In this document: positions 11,583 through 37,710 of the stretch, one piece after another | How positions within the stretch are numbered: position 1 is the first letter of the stretch | Layout of the letters: every line of letters begins with the position of its first letter | Translations under genes and position numbers: made by a program | Notes under the pieces: model-generated | The model's database searches: none | Seen by the model: only the letters and a program-made list of their open reading frames with translations | Told to the model about the DNA's origin: nothing | Source: Branchiostoma floridae | Lineage: Eukaryota; Chordata; Leptocardii; Amphioxiformes; Branchiostomatidae | DNA: 64,000 nucleotides | Assembly (NCBI RefSeq): GCF_000003815.2 | Contig: NC_049983.1 | Location: forward strand, 1,084,900 to 1,148,899 | Direction: 5' to 3'

Positions 11583-11800
11583 ATAAGTTGTGAGACCGCG
11601 TGGCTTGATCGGCAGCGCGTTCGCCTCAGGCCCAAGAGGTCCTGAGTTCGAGTCCCGCCGTGCCAGCGACCTTGTGCAATTGGGGAAGGCTCTTTACACG
11701 ACTCTCCTCACTTGACTCAGGAGTAAATGAGTATCTAGCTGCGGCTAGTGGCAGTGGCAGGCGCGGGACATAACGCTCAGGGAGTGCATATTAAATCATT
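11583..11800 (+). mobile_element. tRNA-derived SINE, plus strand
   Basis: Box A-like TGGCTTGATCGG (11601-11612) and box B-like GAGTTCGAGTCC (11644-11655) with correct spacing are followed by a SINE body (GGGAAGGCTCTTTACACGAC, ACTCAGGAGTAAATGAGTA) and an AT-rich end near 11790. It is in the same family as the minus-strand copy at 3875-4040. The tRNA-like part does not fold as a normal tRNA gene. Confidence 0.75.
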
Positions 11801-12521
11801 CATTTATCATAAATAAAAAATCGTCCTCATCATATTTACGCGCTTACTTATTACACTAGTTACTCATGAATATATGCGTTATGATTGATTTTTTTAAAGA
11901 AATATTTTAAAGATTACACACAACAAATATCAAAATTGTATATTGCGAACAGGAAAGATAAATCTCAGTCTTCAATTTTACTTACACCTGTGACTTTTTT
12001 CCTGAATTATTCCCCCCCCCCAATTATTTCCATAATGTTCACATATAATCATTACATCACACACATGAAGGGTTTGTCTCCTGTGTGTCTTGCTGCTATA
12101 TGGTTGTCCAAAGTTACTTTCTGTGCTGCAGAATAGTCACATCGGTCACATCTGTGGGGTCTTTCACCTGTATGTGTTTTCATATGTTGAGACAATCTTG
12201 ATTTTTGAGCCGCCCTGTGCCCACACTCCTCACACATGTAGGGTTTTTCACCAGTGTGTCTTAATGCTATATGGATGTCCAAATGCCCTTTCTGTGCTGC
12301 AGAATAGTCACACTGGTCACCTTTGTAGGGCCTTTCACCTGTATGGGTTCTCATGTGTTGAGACAATCTCGATCTTTTACCTGTCCCGTAACCACAGAAA
12401 CCACACATGAAGAGTTTTTCACCGTCGTGTATTGCTGCTATGTGGTAGTCAACGTGGAATTTCCGGTTTGCAGAATAGTCACACTGCTCACACTTGTAGG
12501 GTCTTTCTCCAGTGTGGATTA

Positions 12522-12660
12522 CACTGCATGAAATATCGGATTTACCAAACTTACCATTGGTGTGTAAATACCTGGTAAATCTGATGTACAATATTTACCC
12601 AAATTTAGCACATATTTACCCGGTAAATTTGGATAAATACGGGTAAATGCTGGTAATGCA
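12522..12660. repeat. Left subterminal TTTACC/GGTAAA motif cluster
   Basis: About eight copies of TTTACC or its complement GGTAAA in mixed orientation. Such clusters are the expected transposase-binding subterminal repeats of CACTA elements. Confidence 0.6.
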
Positions 12661-13479
12661 CCCTGATATAAGGCCTTAAACAGGGGTACATTTATTGCAT
12701 TGTCAGGGATGGGCCCTCTTTTATGGCCTTATATAGGGGTACATGTGTTACATTGTTAGGGCTGGATCCTGGTATAAGGCCTAATATAGGCGTGCATGTA
12801 TTACATTGTCAGGGATGGACCCTGGTATAAGGCCTTATATAGGGGTGCATGTATTACATTGTCAGGGATGGACCCTGGTATAAGGCCTTATATAGGGGTG
12901 CATGTATTACATTGTCAGGGATGGACCCTGGTATAAGGCCTTATATAGGGGTGCATGTATTACATTGTCAGGGATGGACCCTGGTATAAGGCCTTATATA
13001 GGGGTGCATGTACATTGTCAGGGAAGGACCCTGGTATAAGGCCTAATATAGGGGTGCATGTATTACATTGTCAGGGATGGACCCTGGTATTAAGGCCTTA
13101 TATAGGAGTGCATGTATTACATTGTCAGGGATGGACCCTGGTATAAGGCCTTATATAGGGGTGCATGTATTACATTGTCAGGGATGGACCCTGGTATAAG
13201 GCCTTATATCGGGGTGCATGTATTACATTGTCAGGGATGGACCCTGGTATAAGGCCTTATATAAGGGTGCATGTATTACATTGTCAGGGATGGACCCTGG
13301 TATAAGGCCTTATATAGGGGTGCATGTATTACATTGTCAGGGATGGACCCTGGTATAAGGCCTTATATAGGGGTGCATGTATTACATTGTCAGGGATGGA
13401 CCCTGGTATAAGGCCTTATGTAGGGGTGCATGTATTACATTGTCAGGGATGGACCCTGGTATAAGGCCTTATATAGGGG
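12661..13479. repeat. 53-bp satellite array
   Basis: About 15 units of 53 bp (for example starts at 12877 and 12930). Each contains a perfect 14-bp palindrome TATAAGGCCTTATA plus CATTGTCAGGGATGGACC. Most copies are identical, so amplification was recent. It lies inside the CACTA-like element. Confidence 0.9.
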
Positions 13480-15355
13480 TGCGGTGGTAACCACAGTGTA
13501 CAGAACACCCCACCGCCCTGAGATAAGAGTTATGTCAGGGCGAGGGTACTCGCAGTATACAGAACACACCACCGCCCTGAGATAAGAGTTATCCGAGGGC
13601 AGTGGTACCCGCAGTGTACAGAACACCACACCGCCCTGAGATAAGAGTTATCCCTGGGCGGTGGTACCCAGAGTATACAGAACACCACACCGCCCTGAGA
13701 TAAGAGTTATCCCAGGGCGAGGGTACCCACAGTGTACAGAACACCACACCGCCCTGAGATAAGTGTTATCCCAGGGCGAGGGTACCCACAGTGTACAGAA
13801 CACCACACCGCCCTGAGATAAGAGTTATCCCAGGGCGAGGGTACCCACAGTGTACAGAACACCACACCGCCCTGAGATAAGAGTTATCCCAGGGCGAGGG
13901 TACCCACAGTGTACAGAACATCACACCGCCCTGAGATAAGAGTTATCCCAGGGCGAGGGTACCCACAGTGTACAGAACACCTCACTGTCCTGAGATAAGA
14001 GTTATGTCAGGATGGGGGCACCCAAAGGGTATAGAACACCTCACCGCCCTGAGATAAGAGTTATCCCAGGGCGAGGGTACCCACAGTGTACAGAACACCA
14101 CACCGCCCTGAGATAAGAGTTATCCCAGGGCGAGGGTACCCACAGTGTACAGAACACCACACCGCCCTGAGATAAGAGTTATCCCAGGGCGAGGGTACCC
14201 ACAGTGTACAGAACACCACACCGCCCTGAGATAAGAGTTATCCCAGGGCGAGGGTACCCACAGTGTACAGAACACCACACCGCCCTGAGATAAGAGTTAT
14301 CCCAGGGCGAGGGTACCCACAGTGTACAGAACACCACACCGCCCTGAGATAAGAGTTATCCCAGGGCGAGGGTACCCACAGTGTACAGAACACCACACCG
14401 CCCTGAGATAAGAGTTATCCCAGGGCGAGGGTACCCACAGTGTACAGAACACCACACCACCCTGAGATAAGAGTTATCCCAGGGCGAGGGTACCCACAGT
14501 GTACAGAACACCACACCGCCCTGAGATAAGAGTTATCCCAGGGCGAGGGTACCCACAGTGTACAGAACACCACACCGCCCTGAGATAAGAGTTATCCCAG
14601 GGCGAGGGTACCCACAGTGTACAGAACACCACACCGCCCTGAGATAAGAGTTATCCCAGGGCGAGGGTACCCACAGTGTACAGAACACCACACCACCCTG
14701 AGATAAGAGTTATCCCAGGGCGAGGGTACCCACAGTGTACAGAACACCACACCGCCCTGAGATAAGAGTTATCCCAGGGCGAGGGTACCCACAGTGTACA
14801 GAACACCACACCGCCCTGAGATAAGAGTTATCCCAGGGCGAGGGTACCCACAGTGTACAGAACACCACACCGCCCTGAGATAAGAGTTATCCCAGGGCGA
14901 GGGTACCCACAGTGTACAGAACACCACACCGCCCTGAGATAAGAGTTATCCCAGGGCGAGGGTACCCACAGTGTACAGAACACCACACCGCCCTGAGATA
15001 AGAGTTATCCCAGGGCGAGGGTACCCACAGTGTACAGAACACCACACCGCCCTGAGATAAGAGTTATCCCAGGGCGAGGGTACCCACAGTGTACAGAACA
15101 CCACACCGCCCTGAGATAAGAATTATCCCAGGGCGAGGGTACCCACAGTGTACAGAACACCACACCGCCCTGAGATAAGAGTTATCCCAGGGCGAGGGTA
15201 CCCACAGTGTACAGAACACCACACCGCCCTGAGATAAGAGTTATCCCAGGGCGAGAGTACCCACAGTGTACAGAACACCTCACTGCCCTGAGATAAGATT
15301 TATGTCAGGATGGGGGCACCCAAAGGGTATAGAACACCTCACCGCCCTGAGATAA
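13480..15355. repeat. 59-bp satellite array with paired GATA palindrome
   Basis: About 32 units of 59 bp. Each has CCCTGAGATAA, GAG, TTATCCCAGGG, an 11-bp-arm hairpin with one mismatch, and GGGTACCC. The hairpin presents two convergent WGATAR-type sites. A variant unit (GTCAGGATGGGGGCACCC) occurs at about 13980 and 15278, exactly 22 units (1298 bp) apart, showing a block duplication within the array. Confidence 0.9.
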
Positions 15356-18300
15356 TAGTATTGGGGACAGAGCATAAAAGTTGAACACAGTCATCATTAC
15401 CAGTCGACTATCATTTTAGGCCTTGACTTGAGTGAAATTGTAGGTGTAGTTCATTCATGAATGAGTCTCTATTAATAAGTATTTTACCATGATTGTTTAC
15501 CATACTTAGAATTACATAACGGGCCCCTTATATATTTATGAAGAAAAATGCTTCAGTTAAAACTCAAGACAGTTCACAATCACAGATCTTATGTATTTAT
15601 AAATTATATGCTACACAGTTTGTGATAAATAACAAAGGTCACAGCTTTTAGTTAAAACAACTCTAAAATCTACAGTGAAAAATCCAAAAGATAACAGGTC
15701 AATCTTTAAACAGATGCTGTAAAGCAAACTTGAATCTAACCAAGGAAGGAAGGCCTTATAAGCTTTACACATTGTGTCACAAATGTCCCTCATGGTCAAC
15801 GTGCTGTATTGGGTCCTAAAAGGTCAACTTCTGACCTCAGGGTCAACATCCTAAAGGCCACAGAAATACTACGATCTGATTGGACCGTCGGAAACGCATG
15901 CGCACCATGCGGGCGCGGGACAATTACAAAAAGTCGTTACGAGATATGAGATCAGACATGACTACGGGGTTTTACGTATCGCTTTCTACGCTACAAATGG
16001 CACAAGGAGTCTGCTATGGTCGGTCAGCAATTTGGGAGAGGCTTGTGAGTGTAGGGGGAATATGGTGTAAGCTCAAACGGACGGAAAATTATCGTGAATG
16101 ATGTTTTAGTTGTACGTTTGGCGGCCGCCCCCCTCCCACCCTGGGCGGCGCACCCTCCCCGCAGGATCCAACGTGTACTTGAGAAAGAGAAGAAAGAGAT
16201 AGAGAGAAAGGAATGAAGGAAAGCACATGAGACCATTTACCGACAACTGAAGCGGTTAGAGAGACAACAACAACAACGTGTACTTCGGTGAGTAGAAAAT
16301 ATATAGACTGTGCTTGCCTTTCAGTGTGCTTCGTTTTTTAAGCAAAAAGTAGGTTCGCTTTTGCTTTTCCCACTTGTTTTGTTATTGACATGTAATCGTT
16401 AGAAACAAATTTGTCTCCAACTAACCTGCCCCCCTCCCCCATTTAATAGGAAAATGTATTGGACAACAGGCATTTCGTATCTGGTTTTATGATACAAAAC
16501 AGCAACAGCACTTGATGGGTGAATAATTGTGCGTTGATAAGAGAATTAATTTGTAGTCACATACATACTGTTAAACTTGAAACAAGTAGGATTAAATTAA
16601 TGCTTCCAAATGATTATTTATATTTTATAGATTATACTAGTACTATACATATTTAAATATATTTATTCATGTATTCGTTCAAATCATGGCTGGCATCACA
16701 CAGCCAAGGCTGTCGATCTAGTTGTGACTATTATTATCAAGGGCTAACCTTTAACAATTTGAACACTGTTCAGTAACTGACAGTTGTTTGGTCACTAATT
16801 TGATGACTATTATATTTAAGGTATGGATTTAAGTCACGGTGTGTATGTATTAAATTCAGGGATGGCTGGATCTGATTGTGTCATTATTTCCCTTTTTATA
16901 TGCCTCCAGTACAGCTGCAGTAGATACCTCCTTCAGACATGCAGCACAAGTTGTGAGGGTGGATAGCCAGAAGTAAAGCAAGCATCAGCCAGAAGTTTAG
17001 CTGCTGAATACTTCAATGCTGCTACACACTCCATAGGTAAGCCTCAAAACTACAGTCCTGCATGACCAATATCATCATTGGCACACTTCAGTGTTTACTG
17101 AGGCAGGCCGTTATCATGATTCTGCTTAGTCTGGTTTTAGTTAGTTGTTGTGATGGGACGAAGCACAACTACCCCAGTTATGTCAAAATCGTGCGACATG
17201 TTCCTTGATTGCTGTGTATATATTTTTTATTTGTGTCATACCTGATAACATTTGATAGGGGTGTTCCAGACCGGATGATGATTTTCCGTATCACACAGGC
17301 TTTTTATTTGTATTAGACAGGTTTCCATCAATTGAATAGAACATACTCTGTTCGAATTTTTCTCGAATTGATGTTATTTAAAGAATAGAGTTGTTTGCAC
17401 CGTGCAGGTTGAAACAATGTAGCGAGTTTTATCCTTTTTATGAGTAGTTTAGCAATTAAATTGAGAGTTTTCCGACCTGGATATGATATACATGTATAGA
17501 ATACAACACGGAGTATTCTGTATCACCTAAGGTACCAGGATCACCCGAAGGCCGGAGGGTGATCCGACCCGTAGGAGGGGTGGGACCGAGGATGATGTGA
17601 AATACTATACACCATGTTTTATTTTATTTGTAACATACCTACCTGAGAAAACACAAGTTTCGATGCAAAACGCGCCAGAAGTTTAAAAAAATTTGGTGTC
17701 CTTGAACAAAAACAGTTACAGCAGCAATTTTAACGTCTGAATCAGTTATTCGAATTTTAGACCACGCCGCCCTCGGTGTGGGTAGAGTACGTTTGAAGTG
17801 TTCGATGGAAGCCTGTGTGATACAGCTTTTCATTGCCCAGTCCAGAACACCCGTATCGACCAATATCGTGGCCCAGGTATGACGACATGAAATTTACATG
17901 AAAAATACAACACAATGTATTCGGCATTACTCTCAGTCCCAGCCCTCCCACGGATCGGATCGCTTGACCCAGTCAGGCTGGTACACCATGTTGTTGTATT
18001 CTATATTTATCAATTTTCAGTACACATGGGGACTACCCTTCAGTTGCAAATTTAAATAGGCTAGATTTCCACACATAGATTTATATTCTGTGATACTTTT
18101 GTTTTATCATGTAGGAACTGACTCACCACACAAAGGACTCCAAACTCATGCCAAGAAGTTCAGCATTCAGACACAGAAGAAGGCAGCCTGTGCTTGTTTG
18201 GACCCTACACGGAGTGCTTCGCAGCAGTGGACTTGAATATAGATGACAAGAGGATGTCTGTACGCAGTTCCACAGAATGTACTAGTAACTCAGGTGTTCA

Positions 18301-19540
18301 CAGTTTGGCTGGACTTTAAAAGTTTACTCATCTGTATTTCAATATCTTTATTGACAACAACTTTGTTCTTTTATGTGATTGCTCTTAACCTAAGGGCCAC
18401 TAAAATCTTCATAGCTTTGAAGACTTCCAGTATGAAGCAAATTCTGTTTCACTGTTGTGTGATTGTATGAACCGTGTGATTATGATACATTTTACATAAT
18501 TGTCAGAATTACATTGTACCTACACAGGTCCCATACAATATGCTTGTACCTGCATATACAGGTGGTATTTTGAGCCCTGACATGCATCTGACCCTCACCA
18601 TTCTCCAAAGGAAATGGATTTCTTAGCCAGATCACTGGGTTGTTTTTAATCTGTTATGAACTTATTAATTCCCCAATCTATGAAGTTTCGAAAATGATGA
18701 ATTGTTGCTTGAATAAACATGTAGCATCACATGATGCTAATACTAGTAATAGGATCATGTTGGCAAAGTGTAAAACAATACAGGCCCCATTAAATGTTAC
18801 ATAAGTCTTTTATAGGTCATTAATGCACTGCATTTCAGTGTCATGTTACTGTTTCTTTCATTCATCTTGATCATAGTTGCACATTTTGCTTTTTACATTT
18901 GTTAACAGTGACAGCATAGTTTGGATGTTGCACACAATATATGATACAACTGTTACAGTACACAGTAAGTACATTGCAAATTCTTAACTGAGTGCTTATT
19001 GTAGTCTCCAACTTCCAAGCAGACATGTCAGCTTGTCCAAGTAGGGACAAATAAGTTTCCATGGGATTTCTGTCCTTTGTAGTCTATTCAGTTATCTGCC
19101 TGCCAGTTGGTTCACTCCTATTACTCAAGTCCCCTATTAGTATTTGACCAAGCCAGAGTCTGGTAGAGACTGGGCTAATTGCAGATGAAATGTGATGGGC
19201 AAATAGTGTATGGCAAAAATATTGTATATAATTTCTAAAGCCTGTTTGTCAGTGCACAATGACGGAGACTGATGATAGGTTTAGATAGTGTGTGATGATA
19301 AAATACTTTCTTAAATATCATCCATGATAAAAGCTGCTTGTAACTGATCAGCTTGTACACAGGACAGTTGACCAATGTTCAATCATGCTATTAACATTAG
19401 CTATATAGCTTATAAGAAAAGGCCACAATTGTATATCTGTTATTTATCTGTTTACCCTTTAGAAATCCTAACTGTCATTGTTGATATGTTTATCCAATAA
19501 ATAATGCTGAGTTTGGCCACAAATCGTGTTATGATTCAAA
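15356..19540 (+). other. Possible captured transcription unit inside the CACTA-like element
   Basis: On the + strand there is an NRF-1-like GCATGCGCAC (about 15895) and a Gln/Arg-rich coil-like segment ending at a GTGAGT donor near 16290. A segment ending ATAG/GTAAGC at 17036 splices in phase to an acceptor TCATGTAG and a last exon from 18119 to a stop at 18239 (..ACLDPTRSASQQWT). Poly(A) signals AATAAA lie at 18712 and 19496. In-frame stops occur if the upstream acceptor at about 16909 is used, so the model is uncertain and may be a decayed captured gene. I recognise no family. Confidence 0.3.
17477..18010. repeat. Dispersed repeat with ATAGAATACAACAC ends
   Basis: ATAGAATACAACAC..GTATTCTGTATCACC near 17497-17530 and GTTGTATTCTATATTTATCA near 17991-18015 face each other. 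The same words occur in inverse order at 37500-37710. This looks like a small inverted-repeat element nested in the CACTA-like element; its exact ends are unclear. Confidence 0.5.
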
Positions 19541-19544
19541 ATCA

Positions 19545-20008
19545 TGGGTAATTCTGGGGAGTAATCGGTTTACCGGCTAAATGTGGGTAAAGGGGGGCAT
19601 ATGATATTATTCTGGTAAAGGTTGTATAAAGCCAAGGTAAATACAGCTAAATGTGGGTAAAGGGGGATAAATATAGCATTGAATATTCTGGTAAAGGTAT
19701 GTATAAATCCAAGGTAAATATGGGTAAATACAGCTATATGAGAAATACTCCGCATGGTAAATGTCGGTAAATCCGCAAAATATATGAGAAATACCTCGTA
19801 CGGTAAATCTCGGTAAACGCATATTTACACGAACCTGGTAAATGTGGGTAAATCAGGCAAACATTACCCGCTATACCATGCGGGTAAATGCCTGGTATAT
19901 TTGCACCTTTACCGGCGGGTAAATGTCGATAAATCCCTGGTAAATCTAAACTTTACCCGGCTATACATCGCATTTACCAATGGGGTAAATTCGACTTTTC
20001 ATGCAGTG
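19545..20008. repeat. Right subterminal GGTAAA motif cluster
   Basis: More than 20 copies of GGTAAA/TTTACC within 460 bp, mostly in one orientation. It mirrors the left end of the element and marks this as its transposase-recognition region. Confidence 0.65.
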
Positions 20009-21054
20009 TTATGGTGTGTTGGAGTAAGGTTGATCTATTAGTTGTCCTATATCCGCACTCTCCACACATGTAGGGTTCCTTACCCGTGTGTTTATTGCGA
20101 TGATGGTCCAAACCGGATTTCCATGCTGCAGAATAGTCACACTGGTCACACTTGTAGGGTCTTTCACCTGTATGGATTCTCATATGTTTGGACAAGTTAG
20201 CTTTATGGGCTGTCCTGTGTCCACACTCCCCACACATGTAGGGTTTCTCGCCAACGTTCTTTAAGGTGACTTTCTCGGCTGCCATTACGTCTTCTGCGTC
20301 GGTTCTTTTGCTGTCAGAGACAACATGAGAAACCCCGGTGGAAGACCCGTCATTGATTTCGTTGGGGGCCTGACGTTCTACTGTTGCCATGTCCGACCTA
20401 AAAACAAAAAAAGTAGGAGAAATAATAAAACTTGACCTATGAGCATGTCGAAATCCAACTTGATCAAGATATCAAATTTCAACTCCACACATTAGAACAT
20501 ACCTTAATGTGTAGAACGATCATTTAGTGATCCTTTGTATTGTTTTGTCTATGCCAACAAGGCTAACCCTTTTTTTATAGCAACAGGCTTGTTTAGTAGC
20601 CTTGGTTGTGCGTGCTGAACAGCCAATTTAAGCCTTGTAACATTGCTTTTATCACAGATAGTATCTTACCTTGAACCTTGAACCGCGTTGTTATTTGTCG
20701 GTATCAACTAAGCCCCTCCAACCCCCACTCGATGTTTGCTTGTAGGGCATTCCATGGGTTGATGGCACGGTAGAGAAAAGCTAGCTGTTTTGAGTTTGTT
20801 TGTGCCTTAGATATACGTAGTTTGAAACTGAAGGAATTGGATAATGTAGTTGAATATGTTTGGGTTGAATGGACGGGAGAAATAGAACTGTAAATGTTAT
20901 AGAGCTAATGAATGACGAGCATTCTGAAATACGAATCAATACATGTGCTGGTAGTATATATGCATTGTAACCGTTCATATATTATTCATTGTATATTGTG
21001 CAGTTAGCAGCCCCGCCCTTAATGATAGCCTCCAGCTAGTTGGGCAGTCCTGGC

Positions 21055-30548: not shown

Positions 30549-33500
30549 GGTCTCAGAACACAGTTTTTCGCCTATGGGGATTTACATGGTTAAGGACCCC
30601 AAAGTGAGGTGGTTCGACGACTCAAAACCTATAGAAAGGTGCAGATACAATTTACAAGAATTTAGTATGTTGAAGTCGAGGGTACGACCTACAAAATATC
30701 TGAAAATGAGCATAGATTTGCCTGCTCGTTTTTCTATAAAAGACACTTTGATTTGACCCCCAGCGGAGGTCATGGAACTGCAGGCGACGAACAGGAAGTG
30801 CCGGTAACAGTATCAAGGCGCAAATTCCCGCTGGCCGAAGGAGCAACGTAATCCAACTTATACCGTATCAACAACGATATATTCCTCTACCATTCACCAC
30901 AGTTTCCACCTCGCTGTTGTACACGGAAGAATAACTACGGCCTTTGCAAGTACTGCGGTGCACTATTTTAACCCGAACTACTTTTGGGGACGGGGGTCGC
31001 GTATAAATACTGTGTTCTGAGACCTTGAACCAACTTGACCTTGGATTTCTTTTCATTCATACAATAAAACTAGTCAAGATATAAAACCGTACCAAGTTTT
31101 AGAACAGAAATCCAAATGGTTCCTGAGATATGGCCAACTTTGCACTTCGGCGCCTAGCACAGGTGTCGGCCCTGTACAAGGACTATCTGAGGGGCCGCTA
31201 ATTGGTCTCATTATCTCAACAAATTTAATATTCTGGTTGACTTTTTCTTCTACAAGATGCTTGCCAGACCACATTCTACCGTTCTGAGTGATTTGGATTG
31301 GGGGTTAGTCTTTTTTAGGGCGGAAAAGGGGGGGGGGGGTCGAGCGGGCTTTAGACCGCACTAAGTCCTATACTTAAGCATAGGGAGCGGTCTTAGCGGC
31401 CGTTGCCATGGTAACGGCGGTTCTGACGGTAACAAAAATGTTACAGTTCAAGTCAGCCGAGGTCAATTCCTAACATATCATTCGAATTCAATGTTATTAC
31501 CCGTCCCTGGGGAATTAACGCTGTGATTCAAGGTCTCAGAACACAGTATTTCGCCTATGGGGATTTACATGGTTAAGGACCCCAAAGTGAGGTGGTTCGA
31601 CGACTCAAAACCTATCGAAAGGTGCAGATACAATTTACAAGAATTTAGTATGTTGAAGTCGAGGGTACGACCTACAACATATCTGAAAATGAGCATAGAT
31701 TTGCCTGCTCGTTTTTCTATAAAAGACACTTTGATTTGACCCCCAGCGGAGGTCATGGAACTGCAGGCGACGAACAGGAAGTGCCGGTAACAGTATCAAG
31801 GCGCAAATTCCCGCTGGCCGAAGGAGCAACGTAATCCAACTTATACCGTATCAACAACGATATATTCCTCTACCATTCACCACAGTTTCCACCTCGCTGT
31901 TGTACACGGAAGAATAACTACGGCCTTTGCAAGTACTGCGGTGCACTATTTTAACCCGAACTACTTTTGGGGACGGGGGTCGCGTATAAATACTGTAACG
32001 CTGTGATTGAACCAACTTGACCTTGGATTTCTTTTCATTCATACAATAAAACTAGTCAAGATATAAAACCGTACCAAGTTTTAGAACAGAAATCCAAATG
32101 GTTCCTGAGATATGGCCAACTTTGCACTTCGGCGCCTAGCACAGGTGTCGGCCCTGTACAAGGACTATCTGAGGGGCCGCTAATTGGTCTCATTATCTCA
32201 ACAAATTTAATATTCTGGTTGACTTTTTCTTCTACAAGATGCTTGCCAGACCACATTCTACCGTTCTGAGTGATTTGGATTGGGGGTTAGTCTTTTTTAG
32301 GGCGGAAAAGGGGGGGGGGGTCGAGCGGGCTTTAGACCGCACTAAGTCCTATACTTAAGCATAGGGAGCGGTCTTGGCGGCCGTTGCCATGGTAACGGCG
32401 GTTCTGACGGTAACAAAAACGTTACAGTTCAAGTCAGCCGAGGTCAATTCCTAACATATCAGTCGAATTCAATGTTATTACCCGTCCCTGGGGAATTAAC
32501 GCTGTGATTCAAGGTCTCAGAACACAGTATTTCGCCTATGGGGATTTACATGGTTAAGGACCCCAAAGTGAGGTGGTTCGACGACTCAAAACCTATCGAA
32601 AGGTGCAGATACAATTTACAAGAATTTAGTATGTTGAAGTCGAGGGTACGACCTACAACATATCTGAAAATGAGCATAGATTTGCCTGCTCGTTTTTCTA
32701 TAAAAGACACTTTGATTTGACCCCCAGCGGAGGTCATGGAACTGCAGGCGACGAACAGGAAGTGCCGGTAACAGTATCAAGGCGCAAATTCCCGCTGGCC
32801 GAAGGAGCAACGTAATCCAACTTATACCGTATCAACAACGATATATTCCTCTACCATTCACCACAGTTTCCACCTCGCTGTTGTACACGGAAGAATAACT
32901 ACGGCCTTTGCAAGTACTGCGGTGCACTATTTTAACCCGAACTACTTTTGGGGACGGGGGTCGCGTATAAATACTGTGTTCTGAGACCTTAAACCAACTT
33001 GACCTTGGATTTCTTTTCATTCATACAATAAAACTAGTCAAGATATAAAACCGTACCAAGTTTTAGAACAGAAATCCAAATGGTTCCTGAGATATGGCCA
33101 ACTTTGCACTTCGGCGCCTAGCACAGGTGTCGGCCCTGTACAAGGACTATCTGAGGGGCCGCTAATTGGTCTCATTATCTCAACAAATTTAATAGTCTGG
33201 TTGACTTTTTCTTCTACAAGATGCTTGCCAGACCACATTCTACCGTTCTGAGTGATTTGGATTGGGGGTTAGTCTTTTTTAGGGCGGAAAAAGGGGGGGG
33301 GGGGTCGAGCGGGCTTTAGACCGCACTAAGTCCTATACTTAAGCATAGGGAGCTTCTTGGCGGCCGTTGCCATGGTAACGGCGGTTCTGACGGTAACAAA
33401 AACGTTACAGTTCAAGTCAGCCGAGGTCAATTCCTAACATATCAGTCGAATTCAATGTTATTACCCGTCCCTGGGGAATTAACGCTGTGATTCAAGGTCT

Positions 33501-36500
33501 CAGAACACAGTATTTCGCCTATGGGGATTTACATGGTTAAGGACCCCAAAGTGAGGTGGTTCGACGACTCAAAACCTATCGAAAGGTGCAGATACAATTT
33601 ACAAGAATTTAGTATGTTGAAGTCGAGGGTACGACCTACAACATATCTGAAAATGAGCATAGATTTGCCTGCTCGTTTTTCTATAAAAGACACTTTGATT
33701 TGACCCCCAGCGGAGGTCATGGAACTGCAGGCGACGAACAGGAAGTGCCGGTAACAGTATCAAGGCGCAAATTCCCGCTGGCCGAAGGAGCAACGTAATC
33801 CAACTTATACCGTATCAACAACGATATATTCCTCTACCATTCACCACAGTTTCCACCTCGCTGTTGTACACGGAAGAATAACTACGGCCTTTGCAAGTAC
33901 TGCGGTGCACTATTTTAACCCGAACTACTTTTGGGGACGGGGGTCGCGTATAAATACTGTGTTCTGAGACCTTGAACCAACTTGACCTTGGATTTCTTTT
34001 CATTCATACAATAAAACTAGTCAAGATATAATACCGTACCAAGTTTTAGAACAGAAATCCAAATGGTTCCTGAGATATGGCCAACTTTGCACTTCGGCGC
34101 CTAGCACAGGTGTCGGCCCTGTACAAGGACTATCTGAGGGGCCGCTAATTGGTCTCATTATCTCAACAAATTTAATATTCTGGTTGACTTTTTCTTCTAC
34201 AAGATGCTTGCCAGACCACATTCTACCGTTCTGAGTGATTTGGATTGGGGGTTAGTCTTTTTTAGGGCGGAAAAGGGGGGGGGGGGTCGAGCGGGCTTTA
34301 GACCGCACTAAGTCCTATACTTAAGCATAGGGAGCGGTCTTGGCGGCCGTTGCCATGGTAACGGCGGTTCTGACGGTAACAAAAACGTTACAGTTCAAGT
34401 CAGCCGAGGTCAATTCCTAACATATCAGTCGAATTCAATGTTATTACCCGTCCCTGGGGAATTAACGCTGTGATTCAAGGTCTCAGAACACAGTATTTCG
34501 CCTATGGGGATTTACATGGTTAAGGACCCCAAAGTGAGGTGGTTCGACGACTCAAAACCTATCGAAAGGTGCAGATACAATTTACAAGAATTTAGTATGT
34601 TGAAGTCGAGGGTACGACCTACAACATATCTGAAAATGAGCATAGATTTGCCTGCTCGTTTTTCTATAAAAGACACTTTGATTTGACCCCCAGCGGAGGT
34701 CATGGAACTGCAGGCGACGAACAGGAAGTGCCGGTAACAGTATCAAGGCGCAAATTCCCGCTGGCCGAAGGAGCAACGTAATCCAACTTATACCGTATCA
34801 ACAACGATATATTCCTCTACCATTCACCACAGTTTCCACCTCGCTGTTGTACACGGAAGAATAACTACGGCCTTTGCAAGTACTGCGGTGCACTATTTTA
34901 ACCCGAACTACTTTTGGGGACGGGGGTCGCGTATAAATACTGTGTTCTGAGACCTTGAACCAACTTGACCTTGGATTTCTTTTCATTCATACAATAAAAC
35001 TAGTCAAGATATAAAACCGTACCAAGTTTTAGAACAGAAATCCAAATGGTTCCTGAGATATGGCCAACTTTGCACTTCGGCGCCTAGCACAGGTGTCGGC
35101 CCTGTACAAGGACTATCTGAGGGGCCGCTAATTGGTCTCATTATCTCAACAAATTTAATATTCTGGTTGACTTTTTCTTCTACAAGATGCTTGCCAGACC
35201 ACATTCTACCGTTCTGAGTGATTTGGATTGGGGGTTAGTCTTTTTTAGGGCGGAAAAGGGGGGGGGGTCGAGCGGGCTTTAGACCGCACTAAGTCCTATA
35301 CTTAAGCATAGGGAGCGGTCTTGGCGGCCGTTGCCATGGTAACGGCGGTTCTGACGGTAACAAAAACGTTACAGTTCAAGTCAGCCGAGGTCAATTCCTA
35401 ACATATCAGTCGAATTCAATGTTATTACCCGTCCCTGGGGAATTAACGCTGTGATTCAAGGTCTCAGAACACAGTATTTCGCCTATGGGGATTTACATGG
35501 TTAAGGACCCCAAAGTGAGGTGGTTCGACGACTCAAAACCTATCGAAAGGTGCAGATACAATTTACAAGAATTTAGTATGTTGAAGTCGAGGGTACGACC
35601 TACAACATATCTGAAAATGAGCATAGATTTGCCTGCTCGTTTTTCTATAAAAGACACTTTGATTTGACCCCCAGCGGAGGTCATGGAACTGCAGGCGACG
35701 AACAGGAAGTGCCGGTAACAGTATCAAGGCGCAAATTCCCGCTGGCCGAAGGAGCAACGTAATCCAACTTATACCGTATCAACAACGATATATTCCTCTA
35801 CCATTCACCACAGTTTCCACCTCGCTGTTGTACACGGAAGAATAACTACGGCCTTTGCAAGTACTGCGGTGCACTATTTTAACCCGAACTACTTTTGGGG
35901 ACGGGGGTCGCGTATAAATACTGTGTTCTGAGACCTTGAACCAACTTGACCTTGGATTTCTTTTCATTCATACAATAAAACTAGTCAAGATATAAAACCG
36001 TACCAAGTTTTAGAACAGAAATCCAAATGGTTCCTGAGATATGGCCAACTTTGCACTTCGGCGCCTAGCACAGGTGTCGGCCCTGTACAAGGACTATCTG
36101 AGGGGCCGCTAATTGGTCTCATTATCTCAACAAATTTAATATTCTGGTTGACTTTTTCTTCTACAAGATGCTTGCCAGACCACATTCTACCGTTCTGAGT
36201 GATTTGGATTGGGGGTTAGTCTTTTTTAGGGCGGAAAAGGGGGGGGGGGTCGAGCGGGCTTTAGACCGCACTAAGTCCTATACTTAAGCATAGGGAGCGG
36301 TCTTGGCGGCCGTTGCCATGGTAACGGCGGTTCTGACGGTAACAAAAACGTTACAGTTCAAGTCAGCCGAGGTCAATTCCTAACATATCAGTCGAATTCA
36401 ATGTTATTACCCGTCCCTGGGGAATTAACGCTGTGATTCAAGGTCTCAGAACACAGTATTTCGCCTATGGGGATTTACATGGTTAAGGACCCCAAAGTGA

Positions 36501-36917
36501 GGTGGTTCGACGACTCAAAACCTATCGAAAGGTGCAGATACAATTTACAAGAATTTAGTATGTTGAAGTCGAGGGTACGACCTACAACATATCTGAAAAT
36601 GAGCATAGATTTGCCTGCTCGTTTTTCTATAAAAGACACTTTGATTTGACCCCCAGCGGAGGTCATGGAACTGCAGGCGACGAACAGGAAGTGCCGGTAA
36701 CAGTATCAAGGCGCAAATTCCCGCTGGCCGAAGGAGCAACGTAATCCAACTTATACCGTATCAACAACGATATATTCCTCTACCATTCACCACAGTTTCC
36801 ACCTCGCTGTTGTACACGGAAGAATAACTACGGCCTTTGCAAGTACTGCGGTGCACTATTTTAACCCGAACTACTTTTGGGGACGGGGGTCGCGGAGAAA
36901 TACTGTGTTCTGAGACC
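30549..36917. repeat. 982-bp tandem array: 476-bp MITE plus ~506-bp spacer, seven MITEs
   Basis: MITE starts (GGTCTCAGAACACAGT) lie at 30549, 31532, 32513, 33496, 34479, 35460 and 36442, a period of 981-983 bp. The MITEs examined with both ends (first and last) are 476 bp with the inverted end ACTGTGTTCTGAGACC; the second lacks an intact right end (ACTGTAACGCTGTGATTG). Units differ by only a few bases and in G-run length, so amplification is very recent. Each spacer has a GACCGC/GCGGTC stem and an X-box GTTGCCATGGTAAC (first at 31402-31415). The array interrupts the first coding exon of kelch copy 2, with TTGT on both sides. The repeated short ORFs inside are by-products. Confidence 0.93.
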
Positions 36918-37131
36918 TTTGTAAACATGGCACTGAAGTAGGGGCTGGCCGCGGACAGAACAAGTCGATGGCAGGGAAACCGCCGGCCCTCGACTTCAAG
37001 GACGACATCCTGCAGTACCCCAGCCTTATGGCCAACTTTGCACTTCGGCGCCTAGCACAGGTGTCGGCCCTGTACAAGGACTATCTGAGGGGCCGCTAAT
37101 TGGTCTGGGGTTCTTGGTCTGCGGCAGCCAT

Positions 37132-37500: not shown

Positions 37501-37710
37501 ATTTATATACCTTGTATTTATTGTTATGTCATACCTGTGACGCGAAAACGTTCGATACGGGTTTCCGGACCGTGTGATAACTTTTCGTATCTCACGGGTT
37601 CTATTAAACTTGTCCCTTCATCCGCCGGGCGATCCTTCCCGCGGTCGGGCTGGGACCTCGGGTGATACAGAATACACGGTGTTGTATTCTATATTTATCA
37701 AATGGCGCAA
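37500..37710. repeat. Dispersed repeat related to 17477-18010
   Basis: GTGATACAGAATACACGGTG and GTTGTATTCTATATTTATCA match, in inverse orientation, the element inside the CACTA-like transposon. ATGTCATACCTG and GGACCGTGTGATAACTTTTC have counterparts near 17235-17290. Confidence 0.55.

Follow-up and report, generated by a model that had tools for sequence, protein, structure and literature searches.

What interrupts the C2H2 zinc-finger reading frame in this stretch of Branchiostoma floridae DNA, and what did the interruption do to the gene? The window, meaning the whole 64,000-nucleotide stretch analysed (C5:1084900-1148899 of the assembly), had been given a preliminary description in which a CACTA-like transposon lies within a zinc-finger coding exon. 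Our analysis, which included genome searches over 513.4 Mb in 431 contigs, makes it very probable that a non-autonomous CACTA/EnSpm-type element inserted into finger 3 of one C2H2 gene. The element occupies 12522-20008 (7,487 bp), its termini form a terminal inverted repeat (TIR), CACTGCATGAAA, of the CAC...GTG kind with 12 of 12 bp matching, and it is flanked by a 3-bp target-site duplication, TTA; inverted ends, duplication and length were all as first described. Joining the flanks with one TTA also reproduced the 282-amino acid (aa) C2H2 frame, an open reading frame (ORF) running on the minus strand from an ATG at 20390 to a stop at 12052 and encoding eight C2H2 fingers and the stub of a ninth.

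Repeats of the motif GGTAAAT/ATTTACC occur in the subterminal regions at both ends of the element, and 19 of the 32 motifs in the window fall within these 608 bases. The element is multicopy, with copies on many contigs. Genome matches numbered at least 42 for the 134-bp left end and at least 42 for the 469-bp right end, lower bounds in which some matches are pieces of one copy; the left end is present at 100% identity at seven places, including the window. Pairing the ends by eye from both match lists gave 21 pairs for analysis, including the window copy, with six more-diverged pairs left out. The exact right TIR is found in 20 of the 21 copies, and 15 have a perfect 3-bp duplication. Among these 15 duplications there are 14 different sequences (TTA, GTA, AAC, ATA twice, TAA, TGT, TGG, TAC, CAT, ACT, CGC, CAA, ATG and TCT).

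Divergence between the window copy and its nine close relatives is 0.86-1.23% across ~3.2 kb of right-hand sequence. The window copy has 13 private substitutions in 3,151 columns (4-16 in the other close copies), a star-like pattern that marks a fairly recent burst. Copies L018-L024 make up a second group of largely similar layout, at roughly 73-90%. The 53-bp tandem array of the window copy has matches in all 18 copies compared, and the 59-bp array in 15 of them. Among the 21 pairs, three span 16.6-19.2 kb. An 11.8-kb copy on contig 6, with good ends and a TCT duplication, contains no ORF above 166 aa.

One relative carries a transposase gene. PF02992 (tnp2) had 28 matches in the genome; one of them is a gene (C16:369435-371306) situated 4 kb inward of the left end at C16:365432. 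Its frame matches Pfam Transposase_21 (PF02992) at 53.0 bits (cut-off 28.6, E 3.5e-14) and, by eye, contains a C(2)C motif (CSRC) and an H(3)H motif (HLHPH) that resemble those described for the tnp2-type transposase group in an excerpt of PMC12730594. The left end of this contig-16 element has the same 12-bp TIR and the same subterminal motifs as the window copy, its right end at C16:391881 is 84% identical to that of the window copy over 225 bp, and it holds the 59-bp unit of the window at 83-94% (mostly ~92%). Its 26.45 kb contain exactly one left and one right exact family end. The transposase is predicted from sequence, and its activity is putative. Together, the family-wide 3-bp duplications and the existence of a relative that shares the ends and carries a tnp2 transposase bear out the CACTA-like identification.

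Within the window element itself, none of the 8 ORFs scanned gave any Pfam hit above cut-off (127 ORFs of at least 40 aa overlap the element), and tblastn gave no transposase hit below E 0.1 and no kinase hit below E 0.9. Thus, the self-encoded tnp2-type (PF02992) transposase of an autonomous CACTA/EnSpm element was not found in this copy. Since no transposase of its own was found and the contig-16 relative has the same ends, motif and array together with tnp2, we file the window element as non-autonomous CACTA/EnSpm-type, an assignment that does not require its own transposase. An 884-aa tnp2 family (L034, L035) was rejected as the mobiliser, as its 9-kb stretches contain neither an exact CACTGCATGAAA end nor GGTAAAT/ATTTACC.

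Several observations weigh against this assignment. Since 3 of 60 Markov-simulated 64-kb windows contained a 12-bp inverted pair starting with CAC together with a 3-bp duplication, the ends alone are not decisive; what decides the matter is the clustering of motifs at the two ends, the finger register across the junction and the exact 3-bp duplications at 15 of 21 copies. Six of the 21 copies are without a perfect 3-bp duplication: L013, in which the right end is lost, L017, L021, L018, L024, in which the left end is 2 bases short, and L032-33. The trinucleotides flanking the contig-16 element, GAT and ATG, are not a 3-bp duplication, and up to 4.8 kb of that element is assembly gap. Finally, because the first 126 bases of its left end are only 71% like those of the window copy, the contig-16 element may not be the mover of the window element. 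As a separate observation, L017 and L021 are flanked by 4-bp matches, GTTA and ATTA, and not by a 3-bp duplication.

We considered whether the interior could be a recent capture of a single-copy host gene. A 619-bp interior probe (18117-18735) had 20 long matches, each accompanied by a right-end match, and its other matches were shorter than 90 bp. We rejected a capture because the long matches all fall at element copies. Joining three exon-like blocks (15960-16289, 16918-17036 and 18117-18735) yields no long frame. Inverted 49-bp arms (76%) at 17254-17857 are possibly a nested small element, and a 44-bp piece at 17495-17538 recurs at 37650-37693.

The junction was initially described as lying in a linker between fingers. 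Instead, it falls inside finger 3, between QHT and IIH and thus between the two zinc-binding His, and the TGERP linker comes after it. The exact restoration of the frame, which was part of the same description, is correct; since any clean insertion with a target-site duplication gives it, it is trivial. The register of the finger repeat across the junction gives further support. For the bases between finger 2 and the junction, compared at a lag of 171, offset 0 ranks first of 171 with an identity of 0.658, and the background over offsets has a mean of 0.258 (standard deviation 0.064). In a wider test that included fingers 1-2, the peak was at +3 (0.50), and offset 0 was fourth (0.34). We attribute this peak to finger 2 being one codon short, as it is H-x3-H and fingers 4, 6 and 8 are H-x4-H, a one-codon shift.

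This register bears on the possibility that the two finger blocks belong to separate genes and are continuous by chance. The genome is rich in finger blocks (at least 214 and at least 141 matches to the flanks), which eases finger-like joins. Nevertheless, offset 0 is the best of all offsets, the alternating finger types carry on over the join by eye, and three paralogues have a similar N-terminus followed by continuous fingers, two of them with the same 3′ flank. L029 and L030 start with MATIKRQAPNE, compared with MATVERQAPNE in the window, and L031 has the same stretch without an in-frame ATG. All three align through the junction with neither gap nor insert there (79.5%, 79.0% and 78.5% for L029, L030 and L031, over ~600 nt). 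The preliminary description had named separate genes as grounds for abandoning its reading; the register and the three uninterrupted paralogues largely refute them, leaving chance continuity extremely improbable and supporting insertion into one C2H2 coding exon.

The element could also be a large intron, with the 282-aa protein still made. The flanking frame is open, and a precise join would restore the protein. However, splicing would need sites exactly at the duplication, and the element ends CACTG...CAGTG offer, by eye, no GT donor at the required place; we consider an intron highly improbable. A splice-acceptor-like TTTTTAG directly before GTCGGACATGG lies just upstream of the 5′ exon part, and the paralogue L029 is similar there. 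Among 40 candidates scored per flank, no empty allele was found in the assembly for either flank. The best near-full-length match to the right flank was 83% (a partial match reached 89% over 211 bp), and the best match to the left flank was 89% over 364 of 467 bp.

The insertion had been dated to a time after the gene was functional. Function at that time is not established: finger 6 has Gly in place of its first Cys, the finger array is shortened, and the ratio of nonsynonymous to synonymous substitution rates (dN/dS) for the N-terminal 56 codons is 0.59 and 0.82 in comparisons with L029 and L030. The 3′ block (codons 160-280) is 89% identical to the first fingers of L029. After this block, the gene jumps to 3′-flank sequence that lies ~1.27 kb further on in the paralogue C5a and 1.8 kb further on in the paralogue C270. 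Most simply, the finger array would have been shortened by deletion, before or after the transposon inserted. A second transposon insertion at the C-terminal break (12060) was rejected in favour of an internal deletion, which is simpler, since two paralogues have homologous 3′ flanks (83-96% to C5:1557454-1557914 and C270:16964-17419). Beyond the gene, a dispersed repeat of ~173 bp lies at 11590-11762, where most of the listed matches in the 3′-flank search fall (81-90%).

Decay of the gene into a pseudogene may have been under way before the element arrived, though this is somewhat doubtful. The incomplete finger 6, the ~1.27 kb present in C5a and missing here, the frameshift in C270 and the N-terminal dN/dS values would all fit such decay. 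Against it, 282 codons are free of stops and frameshifts, and dN/dS in the 3′ block is 0.33 (L029) and 0.34 (L030), although these values sum both lineages. C5a loses its frame late, and the paralogue clade has the appearance of birth-and-death evolution. What is certain is limited to the interruption and the open frame.

A model that accommodates these data is that a non-autonomous CACTA/EnSpm-type cut-and-paste element, without detectable genes of its own, inserted with a 3-bp duplication into one member of a large C2H2 zinc-finger family, between the two zinc-binding His of its finger 3. The mover was presumably a tnp2-type transposase encoded by a relative, for example the contig-16 element, and we infer that it would recognise the CACTGCATGAAA ends and the GGTAAAT subterminal repeats. 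Unspliced read-through from the ATG would continue for 11 codons into the element before a stop, giving a predicted product of 138 aa, compared with 282, with the C-terminal end HTITLHEKSNLPHW. Most likely, the insertion either knocked out this allele or left a protein truncated to about three fingers. When 19984-20012 is read in frame with the gene (20012-20390), a His at H-x4-H comes from the terminal repeat itself, so finger 3 of the truncated protein may stay complete.

Some related elements carry a kinase gene. A 17.6-kb family member (L025-26, duplication CAA/CAA) contains an intact 481-aa frame with a Pkinase match of 91.4 bits. Elsewhere in the genome, the best matches of this kinase (54.6% over 130 aa and 37.4% over 257 aa) fall within C16:374022-375470 of the contig-16 element and outrank anything resembling an ordinary host kinase. 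Two fragments sit near other family ends: one, 87% identical, is ~1.75 kb inward of a left end on C1; the other, decayed, is ~5 kb inward of a right end on C6 and runs opposite to the orientation of the element. A third intact frame on C6 (435 aa, 26% over 311 aa) is 1.7 kb from a tnp2 gene whose transposase is 41% identical to that of the contig-16 element. The three kinases align along their length, with an N-terminal domain containing invariant SK, E, R and YYGI, and all keep the catalytic K, HxDxKxxN and DFG; the middle stretch gave only weak coiled-coil-type Pfam hits. We do not claim an RFX-like N-terminal domain, an impression given by YYYYGI, as the pieces scanned had no Pfam RFX hit even at E 10.

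The neighbourhood count covered 25 of the 28 kinase matches, after removal of the query and of two matches that were second pieces; the contig-16 gene contributes two of the 25, as separate pieces. The reference set was all listed transposase matches and the family ends without second pieces. Eight of the 25 have a tnp2 match or a family end within 20 kb, compared with a random mean of 0.43, or of 1.03 when distal C6 hits were re-placed on that arm only, and none of 2,000 draws reached 8 in either scheme. Within 10 kb, the count was 6 of 25, compared with 0.24 and 0.54.

We put at about even the chance that a CACTA-type lineage has its own resident kinase beside tnp2, in at least two transposase lineages (41% identical). 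On that reading, the kinase would phosphorylate its targets to regulate the transposase, transcription of the element or host defence, and the window copy would be a stripped passenger. A number of findings tell against a resident kinase. Only one of the 21 paired copies carries it (tblastn E below 1e-3), L032-33 is without it although 5.9 kb of its interior is shared with L025-26 at 98%, and 17 of the 25 kinase matches are near no tnp2 match or family end. In addition, the contig-16 kinase frame spans a 100-N gap, and the ends of the C6 element were not found. A limited literature search (one open-access library, few words) found nothing on kinase-bearing CACTA elements.

By eye, there may be a further shared gene: L025-26 and L032-33 have plus-strand frames with an SLRFGGGL-like stretch, and the contig-16 element has the variant SLSFGGGL (L049:3432-3779, plus). 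A 3′ frame (DSDEEEKTFKTRPIPWQSDLF) is common to at least L025-26 and L032-33.

Table 1. Features of the interrupted gene, the element and the kinase genes of related elements (window positions unless a locus is given)
Feature	Position	Strand	Basis
3′ flank of the gene, with homology to this flank in two of the three paralogues	11760..12058	-	
3′ exon part: end of finger 3, fingers 4-8, stub of ninth, stop	12052..12518	-	ORF, Pfam zf-C2H2, joined frame
Target-site duplication TTA, left copy	12519..12521		
Left TIR, CACTGCATGAAA	12522..12533	+	
Left subterminal region with ATTTACC/GGTAAAT motifs	12522..12655		motif count; genome matches
53-bp tandem array, ~16 copies	12656..13482		TRF
59-bp tandem array, ~32 copies	13486..15359		TRF
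Unique interior, no transposase or kinase found	15360..19539		
Right subterminal region, GGTAAAT-rich	19540..20008		motif count; genome matches
Right TIR, CACTGCATGAAA	19997..20008	-	
Target-site duplication TTA, right copy	20009..20011		
5′ exon part: start codon, N-terminus, fingers 1-2, most of finger 3	20012..20390	-	ORF, Pfam zf-C2H2
Kinase gene in the 17.6-kb family member	L025:3421-4863	minus	
Kinase gene in the transposase-bearing contig-16 element	L043:523-1971	minus	
Kinase gene 1.7 kb from another tnp2 gene, contig 6	L045:1757-3061	minus	

Elsewhere in the window, a tandem array at 30549-37106 (period ~982 bp, copies 90-98% identical) lies, by eye, among repeated BTB/kelch-like frames.

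Chapaev and Mirage elements have target-site duplications of lengths other than 3 bp. The amphioxus family differs from them in that a PF02992 transposase was found in it. Its resemblance is to CACTA/EnSpm (CMC) elements, with which it shares CAC..GTG ends, varied 3-bp duplications, repeat-rich subterminal regions and tnp2 (PF02992) in a relative. It differs from these in a TIR that starts with CACTG, not CACTA, in its animal host, in the window copy having no gene that we found and in the kinase gene of related long copies. In excerpts of PMC12730594, terminal CAC..GTG and a 3-bp target-site duplication are consistent with EnSpm, and Chapaev and Mirage are grouped with EnSpm and mostly have CA..TG ends. 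Plant CACTA elements with satellite arrays or captured gene fragments are also similar: an excerpt of a Chenopodium study (PMC8978399) describes subterminal direct and inverted repeats and internal tandem-repeat additions, much like the subterminal repeats and internal arrays seen here. In that excerpt, the array is near the 3′ end, whereas two different arrays lie at the left end of the amphioxus element (PMC8978399).

The insertion is real and ordinary in kind. It adds one more transposon-broken gene to a large, fast-turning zinc-finger family and gives a precise, 3-bp-marked allele for population work. The kinase-bearing relatives are more surprising than the insertion: to our knowledge, a resident kinase gene next to a CACTA transposase would give this superfamily an accessory function of a new kind.

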